Source of the DNA: a virus
Direction: 5' to 3' (one strand)
Length of the DNA: 23,370 nucleotides
Virus record (IMG/VR): IMGVR_UViG_3300009285_001999
Coordinates: 1 to 23,370 of that record
How positions within the stretch are numbered: the stretch's first letter is position 1; each line of letters opens with the position of its first letter. Below the pieces are notes generated by a model. That model was not told the origin of the DNA and did not search any database. It saw nothing but the letters and a program-made list of their open reading frames with translations. Below are positions 336 through 17,119 of this stretch, piece by piece. The position numbers and the translations under genes were made by a program.

Positions 336-338
336 GTG

Positions 339-2564
339 ATGGGCGTCCGAGAGCGCGAGCTGATCCTCGGCCACTTGGAGCTCGCCGCACGGCTGGCGGC
401 CAACCGGAAGCAGCGTCCTCTGCAATATGCTACGCCCAGCGCTCTAGCTCAAGTTGACGATTCCCGGTGGCTAGAGCCACCCCACATCAAGGCGCTTGAC
501 GCGGCGCTCCTAGCACTGAGCCAACGTCACATACGGCGCCTCATCGTCGAGATGCCGCCACGGCACGGCAAGAGCTTCATGTGCTCCAAATACTTCCCCG
601 CTTGGTATCTCTCGCAGCACCCTGAGCAGAATGTCATCCTAGCCTCGTATGAGGCCAATTTCGCCACGCTCTGGGGTAGGCGGGTCCGTGATGTTGTGAC
701 GGCGCACTCAGAGCGTCTTGGATTTGCGCTGCGCGAGGACAGCAAGGCAGCAGGGGCCTGGGAGACGACGCAAGGCGGCGGCATGTTCTGCACCGGTGTC
801 GGCGGTCCCATGACGGGCCGCGGCGCCAATGTGCTCATCATTGACGATCCCGTGAAAAACCGCGATGAGGCTGAGAGTGTCACCTACCGTGAGCGCACCT
901 GGGAATGGTGGCAGTCCACAGCATACACCCGCCTTGAGCCCGATGCGGTCGTCATCGTCATCATGTGTATGACTGGCGATACGCCCGTGCTCATGGCTGA
1001 TGGCACTGAACTCCCATTGCGCGAAATCAAAGTGGGCGACCAGGTGGCAACCTACGATAATGGCAGGCTAGCAACGTCCACAGTGCGAAACCATAGGAGT
1101 AATGGTCCTGATTCTGTCTTTAGAATTACGACGACTTGTGGTAAAATTGTCCATGCAAACGAACGACATCCGTTTCTCGTAGAAGAGAATGGACAACTCA
1201 AATGGATAAGACTGAAAAACTTGACTACAGCGCACAAAATCGTAACCGTAAGGGACAGTGGGGAAAATGGAAGGGAAAGACATGCTCCGTTGAGGGCTGT
1301 GAGAAACCCGTTAGCGCCCGGGGCTATTGCGCTTCGCACTACAGCAAGAAGCAGTGGGCAGATGGGCATCGCCCACCGTCAATCAATCCAGAGTCACGCC
1401 GCAGCGCGCGCCTCAAGCATAGGTACGGAATCACTGCCGCCGATTATGACGCAATGTATGAAGCGCAAGACGGCAAGTGCGCTATCTGCAAACAGCCCCC
1501 AGGCGACAATGTACGCGCGCATTGGGGTGGGAAACTGTGCATCGATCACTGCCACGAAACAAATACCGTTAGGGGACTTTTATGCAATGACTGTAACCTC
1601 GCCGTGGGATATGCCAAGACAGAGGCAACAGCACTTGCCATTGCCGAATATTTTCGACTTTACAACGGCGCAGATTAAAAGCATTGAACCTGCGGGCGTT
1701 GAGGAAGTATTTGACATTCAAATCGAGCGCACAGAGAACTTTATTGCCAACGGCTTAGTAAGCCACAACACCCGCTGGCATTCCGACGACCTTGCGGGCA
1801 GGCTGTTGCGCCAGGTGGACGACGGCGAGCCTTGGGAGGTACTGCGGCTGCCGGCCATCGCTGAGGAGGATGATCCTGTTGGCCGCGCTGAAGGTGAGGC
1901 ACTGTGGCCAGAGCGCTACGCTGTGGGCAAGCTTTATGAGCTACGTCGGCGCATTGGTGAGTATTGGTGGGCGAGCCTTTACCAGCAGCGCCCAGCCCCG
2001 CGGGAGGGAGCGCTGTGGAAGTGGGATTGGATCGAGCAGCAACGGGTAGAGGTGCCGCCGCAGCTAGAGCGCATCGTCATTGCTATAGACCCAGCTGGAT
2101 CGACGCGCAAGCATGCGGATCAGACCGGCATCGTGCTTGCTGCCAAGGGTGAGGACCGCCATTACTATGTGATGCGTGCGCTTGGACTGCGTGTGAGCCC
2201 GAATGCTTGGGCTGAGCGGGCAGCAGCGCTCTATCAGAATTGGCGGGCGGACCGTATCGTGGCGGAAAAGAACTACGGTGGTGAGATGGTTGAGGCGACG
2301 CTTCGGCGTGTGCGGCCGGACTTGCCGATTACGATGGTGCAAGCGAGCCGTGGCAAGGTGCTACGGGCTGAGCCTATCGCAGCGCTCTATGAGCAGGGAC
2401 GGGTGCACCATGTTGGGCGCTTTGGCGAACTTGAGGAACAGATGACGAGTTTTCCTGTGAGCAATGAGCATGATGACTTAGTGGATGCACTGGTGTATGC
2501 TTTGACCGATCTCATGGAGGCGGGAGGCGAGTATGACGACCAAGGATTCGTCGGCGGATACTGA
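339..2564 (+). CDS. terL: Terminase large subunit, interrupted by an in-frame intein
   Basis: ATP-driven DNA-packaging motor and headful/end-cutting nuclease that docks on the portal. The ATPase domain shows Walker A PPRHGKS (about residues 73-79) and Walker B VLIIDDP (about 166-171). The strand VVIVIM continues as TRWHSDDLAGRLL only after removal of a 268-residue intein (966-1769). The C-terminal RNase H-like nuclease shows AIDPAGS near 2082-2100 and HDDLVDALVYAL near 2469-2504, the usual acidic residues. The spliced protein is about 473 residues, a normal size. ATG 339 is preferred over the adjacent GTG 336 because GAGG near 328-331 is better spaced. The reading frame stays open across the intein even where another gene is written in a second frame. 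Identification is firm; activity depends on protein splicing, which is inferred from intact splice-site residues. Confidence 0.95.
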   Translation: MGVRERELILGHLELAARLAANRKQRPLQYATPSALAQVDDSRWLEPPHIKALDAALLALSQRHIRRLIVEMPPRHGKSFMCSKYFPAWYLSQHPEQNVILASYEANFATLWGRRVRDVVTAHSERLGFALREDSKAAGAWETTQGGGMFCTGVGGPMTGRGANVLIIDDPVKNRDEAESVTYRERTWEWWQSTAYTRLEPDAVVIVIMCMTGDTPVLMADGTELPLREIKVGDQVATYDNGRLATSTVRNHRSNGPDSVFRITTTCGKIVHANERHPFLVEENGQLKWIRLKNLTTAHKIVTVRDSGENGRERHAPLRAVRNPLAPGAIALRTTARSSGQMGIAHRQSIQSHAAARASSIGTESLPPIMTQCMKRKTASALSANSPQATMYARIGVGNCASITATKQIPLGDFYAMTVTSPWDMPRQRQQHLPLPNIFDFTTAQIKSIEPAGVEEVFDIQIERTENFIANGLVSHNTRWHSDDLAGRLLRQVDDGEPWEVLRLPAIAEEDDPVGRAEGEALWPERYAVGKLYELRRRIGEYWWASLYQQRPAPREGALWKWDWIEQQRVEVPPQLERIVIAIDPAGSTRKHADQTGIVLAAKGEDRHYYVMRALGLRVSPNAWAERAAALYQNWRADRIVAEKNYGGEMVEATLRRVRPDLPITMVQASRGKVLRAEPIAALYEQGRVHHVGRFGELEEQMTSFPVSNEHDDLVDALVYALTDLMEAGGEYDDQGFVGGY
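966..1769 (+). mobile_element. Intein in the terminase ATPase domain
   Basis: A protein-splicing element inserted between VVIVIM and TRWHSDD of the terminase. It begins with Cys1 (codon 966-968) in CMTGDTPVLMADGTELPLRE, a classical block A, and continues IKVGDQVATYD. Block B is represented by HANERHPFLV, with the conserved His but Asn where the usual TxxH motif has Thr. The C-terminal blocks read VFDIQIERTENFIANGLVSHN from about 1710 to 1769, ending in the penultimate His and terminal Asn, followed by Thr as +1 nucleophile. Splicing residues therefore look intact (class 1, Cys1/Thr+1). The N-terminal splicing part spans roughly 966-1250 and the C-terminal part roughly 1650-1769. The ~130 residues between them have no recognisable fold in this frame, because that DNA encodes an endonuclease in another frame. 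Confidence 0.93.
1202..1678 (+). CDS. Endonuclease VII-type (His-Me finger) nuclease nested out of frame in the intein
   Basis: A 158-residue protein in the -1 frame relative to the terminase, wholly inside the intein. An N-terminal Cys/His cluster (C28, C33, C43, H46, in TCSVEGCEKPVSARGYCASH) resembles the small zinc knuckle in front of many phage HNH enzymes. The C-terminal part is a recombination endonuclease VII domain: paired cysteines C93/C96 (KCAIC) and C128/C131 (CNDCN), with LCIDHCHETNTVRGLLC between. D115, H116 and N132 correspond to the metal and catalytic residues of T4 endonuclease VII. It is probably the homing nuclease for the intein. No strong Shine-Dalgarno precedes ATG 1202 (only AAGAG near 1183-1187), so its expression route is unclear: internal start, or a -1 slip near 1214-1220. 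The frame has coding-like composition and a complete domain. Confidence 0.9.
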   Translation: MDKTEKLDYSAQNRNRKGQWGKWKGKTCSVEGCEKPVSARGYCASHYSKKQWADGHRPPSINPESRRSARLKHRYGITAADYDAMYEAQDGKCAICKQPPGDNVRAHWGGKLCIDHCHETNTVRGLLCNDCNLAVGYAKTEATALAIAEYFRLYNGAD

Positions 2565-2757
2565 CGGGCCTCCTGCTGATTGGCTGGATAAGCTCCCAGG
2601 TTCGAATGAGGGCGATGTGTTCGCGGCTGGTGGCTGGGGCTACGTGCCCAGCGCGGACTCGCTTGTGACGTGGGATGCCAACCTGCCACGCCCGAAGCCT
2701 GAGATGGTGAGAGATGACGATGCCAAGGCATACCGTGAGGGATTCAGGGAGCGGTAA
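2533..2757 (+). CDS. Small hypothetical protein between terminase and portal
   Basis: A 74-residue acidic protein without a domain I recognise. ATG 2533 lies inside the terminase end (32-nt overlap) and is preceded by GGGAGG at 2522-2527 with a 5-nt spacer, a strong ribosome site embedded in terminase codons. The protein has a Gly/Trp stretch (AAGGWGYVP) and a charged C-terminus (DDDAKAYREGFRER). It ends three bases before the portal start. Small genes at this place in other phages can encode head-tail joining (gpW-like) proteins, but this one shows no clear similarity and could simply be an accessory gene. Confidence is for it being translated. Confidence 0.7.
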   Translation: MTTKDSSADTDGPPADWLDKLPGSNEGDVFAAGGWGYVPSADSLVTWDANLPRPKPEMVRDDDAKAYREGFRER

Positions 2758-2759
2758 TC

Positions 2760-4256
2760 TTGGGTATCCTTGATCGCTTCCTCCGTCCCAACGTCGAGCG
2801 CCTTGCCGAGCAGCGCGCTGGCGAGATGGTGCGAGAGTACATGGGCGGCTTCCAGCTCACTGAAGCGGCCTACGACAGCACCTTTGATTTCGAGTTCGGG
2901 CAGCCCTTTGCAGGCAACACGCAAGCATCCCTTGAGGGTATGCCAGTTCCCGACAAGATACGAGAATGGACGCCTGCTGAACGCGAGGAAGTCATACGCC
3001 GAGCGCATTTCCTGTGGGAGCGTAACTCACTTGCCAAGGGTGCCATTCGCGTCATCCGAGGCTTCGTGGTCTCGACAGGACTCTCAATCACCTACCGAAA
3101 TCCCAGGGTCAAGGCGATCTTGGAGCAATTCCGTGTAGACAACCGGCGCAAGATTCAGCGCTGGGAACGCCAGTGGTTTGAGCAGTTGCTGCGTGACGGT
3201 GAGGTATTCGTGCGCATCGTCGGTAACGGACAGCAGGGCGAACTTGTCCGCGCCGATGCCGTGACGCTAAAACCGTGGCTTGTCGAATACGTGGAAAGTG
3301 CCGAGGGCAACCGCGACGATGTGGTGGCCTACCATGTGCATCCTGAGACTGGGACAGGGGCCCCTGGCTACCCACAGATCGAATCAGGCAAGCTAGAGCG
3401 CATTGACGCCAGTGAGATCGTGCATGGCTATATCAACACCGTTGGCTACGAGGTGCGTGGTCGCTCTGAACTGTTCGCCATCATGCCGTGGCTACGGGCT
3501 TACAACGATTGGCTCGCCAACCGCGCCCGTATCAACCGTTACAAGGGCTTTCTCTACCATCTCCAGCTCAAGGACGCGACACAAGGACAGGTGAACGCGA
3601 AGCGGTCTGCATTCAGGCAGCCGCCTGCCCCTGGCTCTGTCTACGTAAGCAGCGACAAGGAAGTGCTGAACGACATGGGCGGCTACGTCGGCGCGGACCG
3701 TGCCGCGGAGGACGGGCGGCAGATCAAGCTCATGGCCCTTATTGGCTTCCCGATTCCCGAATACATGGTGAGCGAAGGTGAGAATGCCAATCTCGCAACC
3801 GCTCGCTCACAGCAACTCCCCGCTCTGCGCTCGTTCTTGGCTTACCAGGACATTTACACGCAGGAGGTATGGCGCCCTGTCTATGAGGCCGTGCTACAGC
3901 TCGCTGGTCTAGACCTTGAGGGCGAGATCGAGGAATATACCGAGGATGAGGAACCGACGGGAAAGATGATCCGCATCTATGAATCCTTCGAGGTGACGGC
4001 GCAGCAGATTGTGGATGACGACCCGAAGGAGTTGGCGGAAGCGCTCACATTGCATCAGCAGAACGGCTGGGCGAGCAAGTCCACCATCGCGGCCAGGGCT
4101 GGCTACGATTGGCGTGTTGAGGAGGAGAAGATCGATGCGGAGGATCAGGCTGATGCCGCTGCTGTGATGGCGGGCCGTAAGCTGGGCAATGAATTAGTCC
4201 CAAGCATCCCAGGGCGCAATGGGCGAAATGAGCCAGAAGAGGACGAGGAACCATAA
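2760..4256 (+). CDS. Portal protein
   Basis: A 498-residue protein directly after the terminase, of the right size and place for the dodecameric portal at the head vertex through which DNA enters and leaves. The start is TTG 2760, preceded by AGGGAGCGG just before the stop of the upstream gene. The N-terminus (MGILDRFLRP) is typical of portals. The middle contains QWFEQLLRDGEVFVRIV, DASEIVHGYIN and YKGFLYHL, matching the portal clip and stem region. The C-terminal third contains GENANLATARSQQLPALRSF, a pattern common in lambda/HK97-like portals, followed by an acidic tail (EEDEEP). The stop TAA 4254-4256 shares its last A with the next ATG. Assignment rests on position, length and these patterns. 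Confidence 0.85.
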   Translation: MGILDRFLRPNVERLAEQRAGEMVREYMGGFQLTEAAYDSTFDFEFGQPFAGNTQASLEGMPVPDKIREWTPAEREEVIRRAHFLWERNSLAKGAIRVIRGFVVSTGLSITYRNPRVKAILEQFRVDNRRKIQRWERQWFEQLLRDGEVFVRIVGNGQQGELVRADAVTLKPWLVEYVESAEGNRDDVVAYHVHPETGTGAPGYPQIESGKLERIDASEIVHGYINTVGYEVRGRSELFAIMPWLRAYNDWLANRARINRYKGFLYHLQLKDATQGQVNAKRSAFRQPPAPGSVYVSSDKEVLNDMGGYVGADRAAEDGRQIKLMALIGFPIPEYMVSEGENANLATARSQQLPALRSFLAYQDIYTQEVWRPVYEAVLQLAGLDLEGEIEEYTEDEEPTGKMIRIYESFEVTAQQIVDDDPKELAEALTLHQQNGWASKSTIAARAGYDWRVEEEKIDAEDQADAAAVMAGRKLGNELVPSIPGRNGRNEPEEDEEP

Positions 4257-4516
4257 TGGCCCAGCGAGGCAGACCGAGGAGGAACGGCGTGCAACAGGAA
4301 CAAATGCGGGTAGTAGAGGCTGTGACAGCGACGCTGGTGCGAGACAGTTCCTTACTGCGCTGCCCGCGTCTCGGCTGTGGTGCCGTGCGGTTCCATAAGA
4401 CAGACTCCGTGGAGGTGTTCTCAAACGGCACTGAGAGCATCATTGAAACGATCTATCGTTGCATTGAATGTAACAGCACCTATCATCTTGACCAACTGGA
4501 GCCATCGGGACGCTAA
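4256..4516 (+). CDS. Small zinc-ribbon-like protein
   Basis: An 86-residue protein starting in a one-base overlap with the portal stop (TAATG), so probably translated by coupling. After a basic N-terminus (MAQRGRPRRNG) it carries two Cys pairs: RCPRLGCGAVRF and YRCIECNSTYHL, about 30 residues apart, the arrangement of a treble-clef or zinc-ribbon knuckle. Function is unknown; such proteins may bind nucleic acid or be accessory virion parts. It is one of several Cys-pair mini-genes in this window. Coding sequence of the next gene in the -1 frame begins just before this gene stops. Confidence 0.75.
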   Translation: MAQRGRPRRNGVQQEQMRVVEAVTATLVRDSSLLRCPRLGCGAVRFHKTDSVEVFSNGTESIIETIYRCIECNSTYHLDQLEPSGR

Positions 4517-4680
4517 CCGAGCAGATCAGCGATCCGCGTCTCGCCCGTCTCCAAGCCTACACCGTCAACCGTATTCGGCGTCTTGAGGATGAGGCGATTC
4601 TCCGTCTACGCGGCTACTACATCGATGCTGCCCGTGAGCTCTCGCGCATCCTCCAAGACACCTTCCTCCGCTTCGGCGCT
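4492..4680 (+). other. Upstream coding extension of the Mu F-like gene without an ordinary start codon
   Basis: Read in the frame of the gene starting at 4681, this DNA has no stop from 4492 onward and translates to a protein-like helical segment (TLTEQISDPRLARLQAYTV, RIRRLEDEAILRLRGYY, then IDAARELSRILQDTFLRFG). It contains no ATG, GTG or TTG. GGAG at 4498-4501 is 8 nt before an ACG codon at 4510, so rare ACG initiation is possible. ATC 4504 or a -1 shift out of the preceding gene (stop at 4514-4516) are alternatives, although no classical slippery heptamer is seen. The choice of mechanism is inference; the open, protein-like frame is seen. Confidence 0.6.
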
Positions 4681-5454
4681 ATGGCATGGAGCATCACTGA
4701 CGTAGGTCAACCTCAGCGGCAAGTATTTCTCTTCCAGCAGCTTATTCAGCGGATTGATACGCTGACTAGCCAAATCGCTCTTGATCTGCGAGACGCATTT
4801 CAACAGAACTATCGAGACTCCTATTACCTGCGTGGCTGGCAACTCTCGCAGTCTCTCCCAATTCAGGTTGCCTTTACGCTACCGCTTCTGCCGGAGCAAG
4901 CCGTTATCGCCGCAATGGTATTCCCTTACGAAGGGGCGCATTTCTTTGACCGGCTGGGCGATGCACGAATCGACTTTATCCGTAAGTTGCGCAACAGCAT
5001 GACGGCGAGCCAAGTGCTGGGAGAAGGCATCTATCAAGCGCAGAAGCGGCTCGCAAACGAACTAGGCTGGCCCATAGGGCGCCGCACAAAGGCAGCAGCC
5101 ATCGCCAACAAGGGTAACTTCGCGCGGACTGAGATGATAGCGCGAACTGAATTACTGCGGTCGAGTAATCTCGGCGCCGCCGCCGTCGATGCAGCACGAG
5201 CTGACATCTTGCAGGGCTGGGAATGGGTGACAGCGCGAGATGACAGAGTGTGTCCCATCTGTGGCCCGCTCGATGGGCGCGTATGGCCGATAGGACAAGG
5301 GGAGCGCCCGCCCCGGCACGTTCGCTGTCGTTGCGCGACAATTCCAGTGCGCAAATCCAACCGCGAATTGGGTTTGCCGGAGATCGAGAGCGAGTTCCCG
5401 CCGCGTGAGACGTACGCACAATGGAGGGACAAGCGAAGGCTGCCAGCACTATGA
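4681..5454 (+). CDS. Mu F-like / SPP1 gp7-like minor head morphogenesis protein
   Basis: A minor head protein that usually sits inside the procapsid near the portal and helps assembly or DNA delivery. The first ATG is 4681 (257 residues), but coding sequence clearly continues upstream to about 4492, so the real product is probably ~60 residues longer. The C-terminal half carries the family signature: ARTEMIARTELLRSSNLGAA, then WEWVTARDDRVCPICGPLDG, then PPRHVRCRCATIPV, in which paired cysteines (CPIC and CRC) are thought to bind metal. Placement right after the portal is the standard position. The stop overlaps the next ATG (ATGA at 5451-5454). Confidence 0.88.
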   Translation: MAWSITDVGQPQRQVFLFQQLIQRIDTLTSQIALDLRDAFQQNYRDSYYLRGWQLSQSLPIQVAFTLPLLPEQAVIAAMVFPYEGAHFFDRLGDARIDFIRKLRNSMTASQVLGEGIYQAQKRLANELGWPIGRRTKAAAIANKGNFARTEMIARTELLRSSNLGAAAVDAARADILQGWEWVTARDDRVCPICGPLDGRVWPIGQGERPPRHVRCRCATIPVRKSNRELGLPEIESEFPPRETYAQWRDKRRLPAL

Positions 5455-15037: not shown

Positions 15038-15166
15038 ATGGGCGCAGAATTGAACGAGCACAAGCACTGTTGGCATACTGTAGGCGGTAATTGGCCTGAG
15101 TATCGGCAAACTTGCTGTATTCAAGGCTGCGATGCCCAACGCATCCTCTCGAAGGCGATTGCGTGA
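15038..15166 (+). CDS. 42-residue Cys/His-rich peptide
   Basis: ATG 15038 follows the previous stop directly and the frame ends at TGA 15164-15166 in a GTGA overlap with the glycosyltransferase start. The product has HKHCWHTVGG and TCCIQGCDAQR: four Cys and several His in 42 residues, typical of a tiny zinc knuckle. The ribosome site is weak (CAGG). Function unknown; tight coupling to neighbours supports it being real. Confidence 0.55.
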   Translation: MGAELNEHKHCWHTVGGNWPEYRQTCCIQGCDAQRILSKAIA

Positions 15167-16689
15167 GAATCCTCATCTTCAGCGACCTGCCAATCCCCAG
15201 CGGCTTTGGGCGTATATCCACATACATCGCCCGCTATTTGCACTACCGAGGGCATGATATACGCGGCGCTGGCCTATACTATAACGGCGACCCGCATCCG
15301 CACCCGTTCCACATCTTCCCACTCGCTGGGCAGGATATATGGAGCCGTCTCACGCAGATCATCAACACAGGGGTGGGTGATGGTTGGACACCCGAGTTGG
15401 TCATCGCTTCGCAGGACTTCCCCTATCTTGTCTCCTTGCTAAGAGATTGTCCGATTGATTGGAGCGACAAGCGATTCATTGGCATCACGCCCATAGACGG
15501 CACGCCGGTATACAAGGAGTGGGAAGCTGTCGCGCGCATCGCGGATCGAATCATGGTGATCTCGCGCTTCGGCGTAGAGGCGATGCGGCAGCAGGGCGTG
15601 CAGGTTGATCTCTGCCACCCAGGTGTGGACACGACAGAGTTCTGGCCAGCGACGGCTGAGGAGAAGGCGGCGCTACGGGCGAAGGCGGGCATTCCTGCTG
15701 ACTACTGGCTCTATGGGCACTTCTCCATGAACCAAGGGCGGAAGGCCATCCCCGATACACTGCGTGGCTTCTGGGAGTTCGCCAAGGACAAGCCGAAGGC
15801 AGCGCTCTATCTTGATATGGATGAGACTTCGCCTGCTGGCTGGAATATCGGCTTTCTCGCGCAGAGCATGGGCATTCCGACTGAGCGCATTCTCCTAAAA
15901 AAGCAAATACAGGGAGCATTACCTAGCCTGCGGGAGCGGTATGCGATCCTCGATGCGCATGGCGTGTTGGCCTATCGTGAGGGCTTCGGCCTGCCGTTGC
16001 TAGAGAGCATGGCGATGCGACTCCCCACCTTCGCCCAGGACTGGTGTAGCGGCACCGAAGTCGTAGGCGATGGCAAGGGCTATCTCGTGCGGATACGGCG
16101 GGATTCCTACGGCGATCCGATCCAGACGCCTGGGACTTGGGGCAATGCCCACGATGCGCTCCCTGATACGCGCCACTTCGCCGAACTCCTGAATGACTGC
16201 TACAGCAGACCAACAGAAGCGGCGGCGGTGGCGGAGCGCGGCTATCAGTGGGCGATCCAACAGACCTGGGAGACTACTGGCAAGCAGGTGGAAGATGCAA
16301 TCGTCCGAATTTATGGCCCCAGTGCTCTCAGTCATCGTGGCTACCTTCAACCGCAATTGGGAGGCAATAGCGCACACGCAGCGGTGCCTAGCGAGCCTCA
16401 TGGCGACCAGCGACCCGAACCTGGTGGAGATCATCATAACCGACGATTGCAGCCCGATATGGCAGCCGATCGAATGGTATGGCCCGCCGATCAAGGTGAG
16501 CCGCAACGAGCGGAACCTGGGTTTCGCGGCGAATTGCAACCAGGGCGCGAAGCTGGCAACGGCACCGTGGCTCTTGTTCCTGAACAGCGATACATTGGCG
16601 CAGATGGGCTGGATGCAGGAGTTACTGGTGGCGATAAAGCGCCATCCAAACGCCGTGCTGGGGCCGAAGCTCATATTCCCCCCGACTGA
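15163..16689 (+). CDS. GT4-type glycosyltransferase with out-of-frame C-terminal overlap
   Basis: A retaining GT-B glycosyltransferase transferring sugar from a nucleotide donor. GTG 15163 (GTGA overlap) is preferred, since RILIFSDLPIPSGFGRIS is a classical GT4 N-terminus; an ATG at 15112 would only add unrelated residues. The donor site shows EGFGLPLLES (Glu ~273 and ~281, the E-x7-E motif), preceded by CHPGVDTTEFWP. Family similarity ends near QVEDAIVRIYG (~16314). The frame then runs on for about 125 residues over the next gene, as a Pro/Gly/Arg/Gln-rich sequence without family resemblance, to 16689. Either this tail is an overprinted extension, or a stop has been lost or missed by an indel. 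Acceptor unknown. Confidence 0.85.
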   Translation: MRILIFSDLPIPSGFGRISTYIARYLHYRGHDIRGAGLYYNGDPHPHPFHIFPLAGQDIWSRLTQIINTGVGDGWTPELVIASQDFPYLVSLLRDCPIDWSDKRFIGITPIDGTPVYKEWEAVARIADRIMVISRFGVEAMRQQGVQVDLCHPGVDTTEFWPATAEEKAALRAKAGIPADYWLYGHFSMNQGRKAIPDTLRGFWEFAKDKPKAALYLDMDETSPAGWNIGFLAQSMGIPTERILLKKQIQGALPSLRERYAILDAHGVLAYREGFGLPLLESMAMRLPTFAQDWCSGTEVVGDGKGYLVRIRRDSYGDPIQTPGTWGNAHDALPDTRHFAELLNDCYSRPTEAAAVAERGYQWAIQQTWETTGKQVEDAIVRIYGPSALSHRGYLQPQLGGNSAHAAVPSEPHGDQRPEPGGDHHNRRLQPDMAADRMVWPADQGEPQRAEPGFRGELQPGREAGNGTVALVPEQRYIGADGLDAGVTGGDKAPSKRRAGAEAHIPPD

Positions 16690-17119
16690 CGGAATCGCTC
16701 GTATACAGAGTGCCGGCGGGCTCTACGATAGCGGCAAGCATCCATTCCATCGTTACATCGGGAGCAAGGCAGACTGGAGCGGCGTCAATATTGAGGAGCG
16801 CGTGGCCTGGACGACGGGAGCTGCCATCGCCATGCCGAAAACGCTCTTTGAGGCGCTTGGAGGCTTTGATGAGGGCTTTGTGCGGGGATATTTCGAGGAT
16901 GTGGACTTGTGCGAGCGAGCCAAACAAGCGGGGGCCGAGATATGGTATGTGCCAAGCGCGTGCTTCATTCACGCGACTGGACAGAGCACAGCGGCGCAGG
17001 ATGAGGATGAGAAGGTACGTTTCGCTCGGACTTTCCAGCACAACCGTCAGCGGTTCCATGCTCGCTGGGATAGTGTGATCGAGCCTGACATCGGCGCGGT
17101 CTTGCAGCCAGGTCTATGA
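16295..17119 (+). CDS. GT2-type glycosyltransferase
   Basis: An inverting GT-A glycosyltransferase of the rhamnosyltransferase-like type. The first residues give LSVIVATFNRNWEAI, then IITDDCSP (donor-binding Asp pair), NERNLGFAANCNQGAK, LLFLNSDTLAQMGW (NSDT as the metal-binding motif), WTTGAAIAMPKTLFEALGGF and FEDVDLCERAKQAG (ED acidic motif). ATG 16295 follows AGGTGGA; ATG 16313 is an alternative closer to the conserved core. The first 395 nt overlap the preceding GT4 gene in another frame. No membrane segment, so cytoplasmic. With the GT4 gene it probably adds sugars in sequence to one acceptor. Confidence 0.9.
   Translation: MQSSEFMAPVLSVIVATFNRNWEAIAHTQRCLASLMATSDPNLVEIIITDDCSPIWQPIEWYGPPIKVSRNERNLGFAANCNQGAKLATAPWLLFLNSDTLAQMGWMQELLVAIKRHPNAVLGPKLIFPPTDGIARIQSAGGLYDSGKHPFHRYIGSKADWSGVNIEERVAWTTGAAIAMPKTLFEALGGFDEGFVRGYFEDVDLCERAKQAGAEIWYVPSACFIHATGQSTAAQDEDEKVRFARTFQHNRQRFHARWDSVIEPDIGAVLQPGL

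Follow-up and report, generated by a model that had tools for sequence, protein, structure and literature searches.

An endonuclease VII-type gene, putatively for homing, overprinted in the -1 frame of a phage terminase intein

How can one stretch of DNA encode both the interior of an intein and, in another frame, a complete nuclease, and what would such a nuclease do? Inteins are usually described with an in-frame homing nuclease domain, and these decay to mini-inteins. The locus considered here lies in a 23,370-nucleotide stretch of viral DNA (the window; IMG/VR record IMGVR_UViG_3300009285_001999), where the gene for the terminase large subunit (TerL) contains an intein and the middle of that intein contains an endonuclease VII gene in the -1 frame (Table 1). 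The architecture, its conservation, the start codon, stop avoidance, selection on the nuclease, transfer, empty sites and a decay series were computed for the window and its relatives. We favor the interpretation that the intein is mobile and that a separate -1 frame gene within its central loop, not a domain of the intein, supplies the homing endonuclease; we give this interpretation a probability of roughly 0.8.

Table 1. Terminase, intein and nested nuclease features in the window.
Feature	Coordinates	Strand	Remarks or basis
Terminase large subunit (TerL, Terminase_6 type)	336..2564	+	742 aa, frame continuous through the intein
N-extein, ATPase domain	336..965	+	ends ...VIVIM at the conserved C-motif
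Intein, Cys1 ... His-Asn268, +1 Thr	966..1769	+	268 aa; Pfam, NCBIfam, exact empty sites in relatives
N-terminal splicing half, residues 1-98	966..1259	+	AlphaFold2, Foldseek
Conserved intein Gly codon GGA	1191..1193	+	position of Shine-Dalgarno-like GGAG in many relatives
Nuclease ATG start	1202..1205	+	last base of a Lys codon + TG of the invariant Trp TGG (1203-1205)
Nested Endonuclease VII / DHHRN-type nuclease with N-terminal zinc finger	1202..1678	+	158 aa, -1 frame
Intein-frame linker, residues 99-228	1260..1649	+	stop-free by-product of the nuclease gene; pLDDT <50
Nuclease N-terminal zinc finger, C28-x4-C33 ... C43-x2-H46	1283..1341	+	invariant columns
Nuclease catalytic core: C93-x2-C96, D115-H116-x-H118, R124, C128-x2-C131-N132	1478..1597	+	invariant or nearly invariant columns
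C-terminal splicing half, residues 229-268	1650..1769	+	AlphaFold2, Foldseek
C-extein, TRWH... to RNase H-like nuclease domain	1770..2561	+	Terminase_6C, E = 7.8e-24

A preliminary description, made from the window sequence, had claimed that the terminase frame is stop-free across an intein with intact splicing blocks and that a complete 158-codon endonuclease VII gene is nested inside it. Profile searches bear out both claims. The Pfam Intein_splicing model matches terminase residues 220-478 (E = 1.5e-14), and the NCBIfam intein_Nterm and intein_Cterm models both match the same protein. The intein corresponds to terminase residues 211-478 and runs from Cys (966-968) to Asn (1767-1769), which is followed by Thr; the extein junction reads VIVIM/TRWH. 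Cys1, the RHPF motif with the block B His, Asn268 and the +1 Thr are invariant among related inteins, and the penultimate His is nearly invariant. The window copy possesses the N- and C-terminal motifs and each of these residues, the pattern of a class 1 type intein, and it is inserted precisely into a conserved host motif for which relatives supply empty alleles with the exact junction (the pairs Phlyer/Philly and Affeca/Paries). These features point to a class-1-like intein, and splicing of the window copy is predicted. The locus is not a canonical large intein with an in-frame nuclease domain, the nuclease being -1 in every intact locus, nor is it a split intein with the host gene in two ORFs, the terminase being one continuous ORF. 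A second contig (L007) is 100% identical to the window over the gene, which makes a sequencing error in the window unlikely.

The nested ORF matches Pfam Endonuclease_7 with E = 5.1e-20 and PHROG endonuclease VII with E = 8e-30, and a profile of the nuclease family run against the PDB finds T4 endonuclease VII (E = 2.3e-9). The zinc and catalytic residues vary little or not at all across 38 relatives. D115, H116, H118, R124 and N132 of the nested nuclease correspond to D40, H41, H43, R54 and N62 of the T4 enzyme, residues described as essential for enzymes of the Endo VII/F-CphI family (PMC6083498). The D, H, H, R and N residues together with the CxxC...CxxC zinc site place the protein in the DHHRN family, and it has the Endo VII catalytic domain that typifies the T4-type Holliday junction resolvase. 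The structural model of the nuclease has a mean pLDDT of 84; its best Foldseek matches in the PDB are T4 Endo VII and Hpy99I, both with weak E-values (8e-3 for T4 Endo VII). The zinc finger also matches Zf_WRKY19 with E = 9.6e-5, which is below the curated cut-off of that model.

Structure prediction distinguishes the parts of the intein that are expected to fold from the part that is not. Alignments for structure prediction were made with rows from phage records left out. AlphaFold2 modeled residues 1-98 and about 229-268 of the intein frame mostly at pLDDT >90 and residues 99-228 at <50. The ordered part (about 139 residues) aligns with the Ssp DnaB mini-intein (1mi8) with a Foldseek TM(target) of 0.88, which identifies a HINT fold. 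The intervening linker of ~130 residues is predicted to be disordered, and the stretch that encodes it coincides with the core of the nuclease gene.

Relatives were gathered from IMG/VR scans for the nuclease and for the N-terminal splicing half, to which phage records and the window were added. The resulting set has 158 measurable intein loci and 99 non-redundant ones after clustering at 90% DNA identity. A comparison of TerL inteins with and without the nuclease at this site had been proposed in the preliminary description, and the nuclease is present in 95 of the 99. Every intact nuclease is in the -1 frame relative to the intein. Only L034/L227, L065 and L220 depart from this, by single-base shifts that look like assembly errors or pseudogenes. 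The first scan had the -1 arrangement in 77 of 79 measurable loci, and among the intein loci scanned no relative was found in which nuclease and intact intein share a frame or in which an indel makes them do so. When the nested ORF was compared with 50,697 phage records, the best matches sat under genes annotated as terminase. The isolated Gordonia phages Affeca, Vivi2 and Angelicage, the Mycobacterium phages Phlyer and Vincenzo, and phi1_186018 all have an open terminase ORF with the nuclease in the -1 frame, and in these six records the nuclease is nowhere annotated as a separate gene. A note in the Vincenzo record mentions a homing endonuclease within the intein. The N-terminal splicing half of the window shares 62% identity with its Affeca counterpart and 55% with the Phlyer one. 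On bacterial genome contigs, which include isolates of Bradyrhizobium, Nonomuraea and Mycolicibacterium, 11 of 11 closest relatives share the arrangement with 0 intein-frame stops. Free-standing relatives of the nuclease returned by the same search act as a built-in control, and most of them have stops in the corresponding frame. The arrangement is confirmed to extend beyond the window and is far more general than the preliminary description had claimed.

Whether the open frame is maintained was assessed from the stop codons that the nuclease sequence could have produced. Expected numbers were calculated by drawing synonymous nuclease codons from the terminase codon usage of each locus. The 95 non-redundant nuclease-bearing loci, which are related and not independent trials and whose GC3 spans 27 to 94%, contain 0 intein-frame stops against 310 expected, and the third frame of the same loci contains 1198. 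Stops in the intein frame of relatives had been named beforehand as evidence against overprinting. At the window alone, about 10% of synonymous nuclease recodings leave the intein frame stop-free, and therefore the comparative data carry the case. The double use of this DNA is a real, maintained design and not a quirk of one sequence.

Substitution rates in the two frames, a comparison also proposed at the outset, assign the selection to different regions. The intein frame has pN/pS values of 0.45 in the first 8 nuclease codons, 1.29 in the core and 0.70 in the last 12 codons, and the corresponding nuclease-frame values are 0.70, 0.29 and 0.48. The intein frame is thus the more constrained of the two over the first 8 codons, and both frames are constrained over the last 12. 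Across the core it is the nuclease that is under selection, with the intein frame only kept open. These regional values mean that the edges are dual-functional and that the core functions as nuclease sequence overlaid by a frame kept clear of stops. The earlier proposal that both frames encode functional protein at both edges is upheld in this graded form; the proposal that the nuclease must also preserve a stop-free linker is upheld for the open frame but not for the linker's amino acids, which are not under selection in the core. A conserved function of the linker core was considered and rejected on its intein-frame pN/pS and its pLDDT.

The nuclease start codon is built from intein codons. 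It is ATG in 80 and GTG in 15 of the 95 loci, and its TG is always provided by the invariant Trp codon of the intein. Where the codon before this Trp is fourfold degenerate, its third base is A in 14, G in 9, C in 0 and T in 0 loci, compared with expected values of 3.4, 8.1, 7.7 and 3.9. The upstream Gly codon is GGA in 62 of 91 loci compared with 12.5 expected and yields GGAG-type sequences at ribosome-binding distance. Both biases indicate selection of the base before Trp and of the Gly codon for initiation. The window itself has a weak Shine-Dalgarno sequence, GGAC. A general Shine-Dalgarno score (at least 4 matching bases) is reached by 70 loci versus 57 with randomised codons; this modest excess is too weak for a strong claim, and the codon-specific GGA test is the solid part of the analysis. 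Any ATG placed in the -1 frame has to share its TG with a host-frame TGN codon. The HINT domain already supplies such a codon for its Trp, and the use of this TGG as a source of the start codon may explain why the frame is constantly -1.

Pairwise comparisons indicate that the intein and nuclease move between terminases. The window nuclease is 84% identical to those of L008/L170, with C-exteins that are about 31-33% identical, and L172/L173 have a nuclease-frame pS of 0.13 versus 0.69 in the C-extein. Apart from the intein, 10 mismatches over 1761 bp separate the terminase genes of Phlyer and Philly. Affeca, Vivi2 and Angelicage correspond to Paries with the intein added; between Vivi2 and Affeca the gene is nearly the same and the inteins are clearly distinct. 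Intein and nuclease are wholly missing from the near-identical phages Philly, Paries and Akoma. Single in-frame deletions within the nuclease are found in comparisons of L210 with L046 (399 bp) and L183 with L207 (321 bp) and in L241 (171 bp). L072 has a nonsense codon in the nuclease with the intein frame open, and the L251 nuclease is likewise interrupted. Distances of the splicing domain, nuclease and exteins correlate with Spearman coefficients of 0.39-0.45, values that taken alone are compatible with shared descent as well as with co-transfer; the discordant pairs tell the two apart. Such a series of gain, decay and loss is what would be expected of a homing element and does not fit a nuclease on which the phage depends. 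Homing is well supported by inference from these comparisons.

Terminase inteins at this position have been described. The TerL6-f inteins of cluster B mycobacteriophages occupy the same type of host protein and the same insertion site, in the ATPase C-motif immediately before TRWH, and the Chandler gp6 TerL6-f intein spliced in an assay (Kelley et al. 2016, PMC5050341). The main text of that paper reports an identifiable endonuclease for TerL1-b and -c only and describes no out-of-frame nuclease for TerL6-f. The closest parallels to the overprinting are the ShiLan domain and the Pacc40 gp60 insertion (Arsenault, Gosselin, Gogarten 2025, PMC11855218), in which the host frame is likewise stop-free with the nuclease in another frame. 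The ShiLan domain has a patchy distribution. It differs from the window in having no splicing domain, a non-essential methylase host, an HNH nuclease and no detectable ribosome-binding site, whereas the window carrier is a complete intein, with its splicing domains, in an essential gene. The enzyme F-CphI, of the DHHRN family, is an Endo VII-motif enzyme serving homing (Fang et al. 2018, PMC6083498). All residues of its motif, CxxC-DHxH-R-CxxCN, are present in the nested nuclease, but F-CphI has a separate ORF (ORF177 of cyanophage S-PM2) and the main text of the paper does not mention inteins. T4 endonuclease VII (gp49) has the catalytic core in common with the nested nuclease by profile; the T4 enzyme resolves Holliday junctions and has a gene to itself, whereas the nested nuclease has an N-terminal zinc finger and moves with an intein. 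Canonical large inteins (LAGLIDADG/HNH) also place a nuclease between N- and C-terminal splicing halves, but as an in-frame domain and not as a separate overprinted gene. No intein with an out-of-frame nuclease was found in the accessible literature, where the only cases were the ShiLan domain and the Pacc40 insertion. These two cases are not inteins. The preliminary description knew of no standard account of this arrangement; it was already present, unannotated, in public phage genomes. The closing remark of PMC11855218 states that overlapping frames are frequent in actinobacteriophages and cites 10.1101/2025.01.02.630785 and Gorbalenya 1998. It is possible that at least the mycobacteriophage cases were described earlier, perhaps in that 2025 preprint.

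We infer nuclease translation, empty-site cleavage and homing along the following lines. Translation of the terminase frame would give a precursor in which a mini-intein-like HINT fold is joined to the disordered loop, and the intein would excise itself to produce active terminase. Ribosomes would also initiate within the intein, at the ATG or GTG that shares its TG with the HINT Trp and has a Shine-Dalgarno-like GGA(G) upstream, and this internal start would release a free 158-residue Endo VII-type nuclease. In mixed infections, the most likely targets of the nuclease are terL alleles that lack the intein, and repair after the cut would copy the intein and nested gene together. The -1 frame would suit this scheme in that an A or G before TGG gives a start near the usual entry point of homing endonucleases in inteins.

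An expressed nuclease could instead serve the phage as a junction resolvase or packaging accessory, like T4 gp49 or a terminase-associated HNH protein, and be co-expressed with no part in homing. The identity of its catalytic residues with those of T4 Endo VII agrees with such a role, as does Kala et al. 2014, as cited in PMC12613952. Yet Philly, Paries and Akoma, near-identical to carriers, do without it, other loci have lost it through in-frame deletion or nonsense while the intein persists, and it travels with the intein between very different terminases; Phlyer and Vincenzo also own a separate RuvC-like resolvase gene. A nuclease that is absent, deleted or broken in close relatives does not behave as a vertically kept recombination or packaging gene, and we regard a service role as unlikely. 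Programmed -1 ribosomal frameshifting, which would fuse the nuclease to the N-extein and N-terminal intein half, would account for the constant offset but not for a start codon present in 95 of 95 loci or for a Gly codon and a base before Trp that are selected for initiation. It is further disfavored because 34 loci have a nuclease-frame stop within 5 codons upstream of the start, 7 of them immediately before it. No obvious slippery motif was seen on reading through the window. Frameshifting was rejected as the origin of the nuclease on the invariant start codon and the upstream stops, and we consider it very improbable.

That the insert is an unspliced, tolerated terminase loop with a hidden nuclease gene has a precedent in the ShiLan domain, an out-of-frame HNH insertion without intein motifs (PMC11855218). 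Against this precedent stand the conserved splicing motifs with Cys1, His-Asn and the +1 Thr, a HINT fold predicted at pLDDT >90, an insertion site within the ATPase C-motif, and the splicing of the Chandler intein of the same group in the assay of Kelley et al. (PMC5050341), and together they leave such a loop with hardly any probability. The stop-free fraction of about 10% among recodings of the window would by itself make room for a chance open frame, a sequence error or a non-functional relic. For the family this explanation is refuted by the absence of intein-frame stops over the 95 loci, and the nuclease pN/pS of about 0.1-0.3 and the identical second contig also count against it, so that it is the least credible of all.

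With a mobile overprinted intein as the preferred interpretation, one DNA stretch would specify two proteins, a loop discarded by splicing and a conserved nuclease with its start signal taken from intein codons. This would open a route for nuclease entry into an intein without fusion, help to explain why apparently nuclease-free inteins may still spread, and constitute a natural dual-coding system within an essential gene. Phlyer and Philly, which differ in the presence of the intein, share the host M. smegmatis mc2 155, which makes homing and the need for the hidden gene directly testable.

Other inteins are overprinted as well. A second, unrelated terminase intein, located near the C-terminal nuclease motif, contains a -1 frame HNH_3 gene in the isolated phages Tetrasphaera phage TJE1 (L331), Acinetobacter phage Highwayman (L332), Rhodobacteraceae phage LS06-2018-MD07 (L334) and the metagenomic loci L024 and L259. 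Each of the five has 0 host-frame stops compared with 1.5-5.5 expected, and the chosen HNH_3 start overlaps Trp in three loci and Cys in two. A search of IMG/VR for close relatives of the L259 HNH_3 gene yielded just L329, a second record of the same sequence. A helicase intein in L326 holds a DUF559 gene in the +1 frame, for which no close relatives were found in IMG/VR. Overprinting of inteins seems to have arisen more than once, and overprinted homing endonuclease genes probably represent a general form of intein organisation that has evolved repeatedly. In that case, an out-of-frame endonuclease may be concealed in many inteins now classed as lacking one, and a nuclease can settle in an intein as an entire gene with no need for in-frame fusion. 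Separately from its helicase intein, L326 contains an Endo VII gene that is also out of frame and lies where no intein motifs are recognised.

An HNH_3 nuclease gene lies out of frame (-1) inside a second terminase intein, which is inserted near the C-terminal nuclease motif and is unrelated to the intein family of the window. This arrangement is found in phages TJE1, Highwayman and LS06-2018-MD07, where the terminase is the sole annotation at the locus, and in two metagenomic contigs without annotation. Reading of the sequences shows two or three inteins apparently stacked per terminase ORF in three records (L258, L251 and L046), at the P-loop, the Walker B region and the C-motif. The nested nuclease of L046-type loci is ~40 residues longer and has an extra N-terminal Cys-rich segment; its frame and start position are unchanged relative to the other nested nucleases.

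Coordinates of nuclease genes, inteins and associated loci
Feature	Record	Positions
Terminase intein, -1 HNH_3 gene	L331 (Tetrasphaera phage TJE1)	1104-3290
Same	L332 (Acinetobacter phage Highwayman)	999-3281
Same	L334 (Rhodobacteraceae phage LS06-2018-MD07)	1104-3152
Same	L024 (contig)	2125-3030
Same	L259 (contig)	3960-4967
Terminase ORF, apparent stacked inteins	L258	710-4492
Same	L251	1155-4157
Same	L046	935-4354
Longer nested nuclease (example)	L046	2824-3408
Joined terminase gene, Endo VII nuclease	L330 (Escherichia phage MaxBurger)	683-3113
DUF559 gene, helicase-like intein	L326 (Deltaproteobacteria contig)	1497-2423
Out-of-frame Endo VII gene	L326	3062-3523
Glycosyltransferase-like genes (two)	Window	15112-17119

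Phage MaxBurger is a parallel case in which the same nuclease type is employed at the terminase. There the span of the joined (two-piece) terminase gene encloses, probably within an intron, the gene of a related nuclease of the Endo VII type, which carries the annotation homing endonuclease. Within an intein, the helicase-like ORF of L326 harbours a +1-frame gene for a DUF559 nuclease; a second out-of-frame gene in this ORF is of the Endo VII type. No recognised intein motifs were found in the stretch around the latter, which resembles the ShiLan domain, an out-of-frame HNH insertion without intein motifs (PMC11855218). Downstream in the window, past the head genes, PHROG matches identify two glycosyltransferase-like genes.
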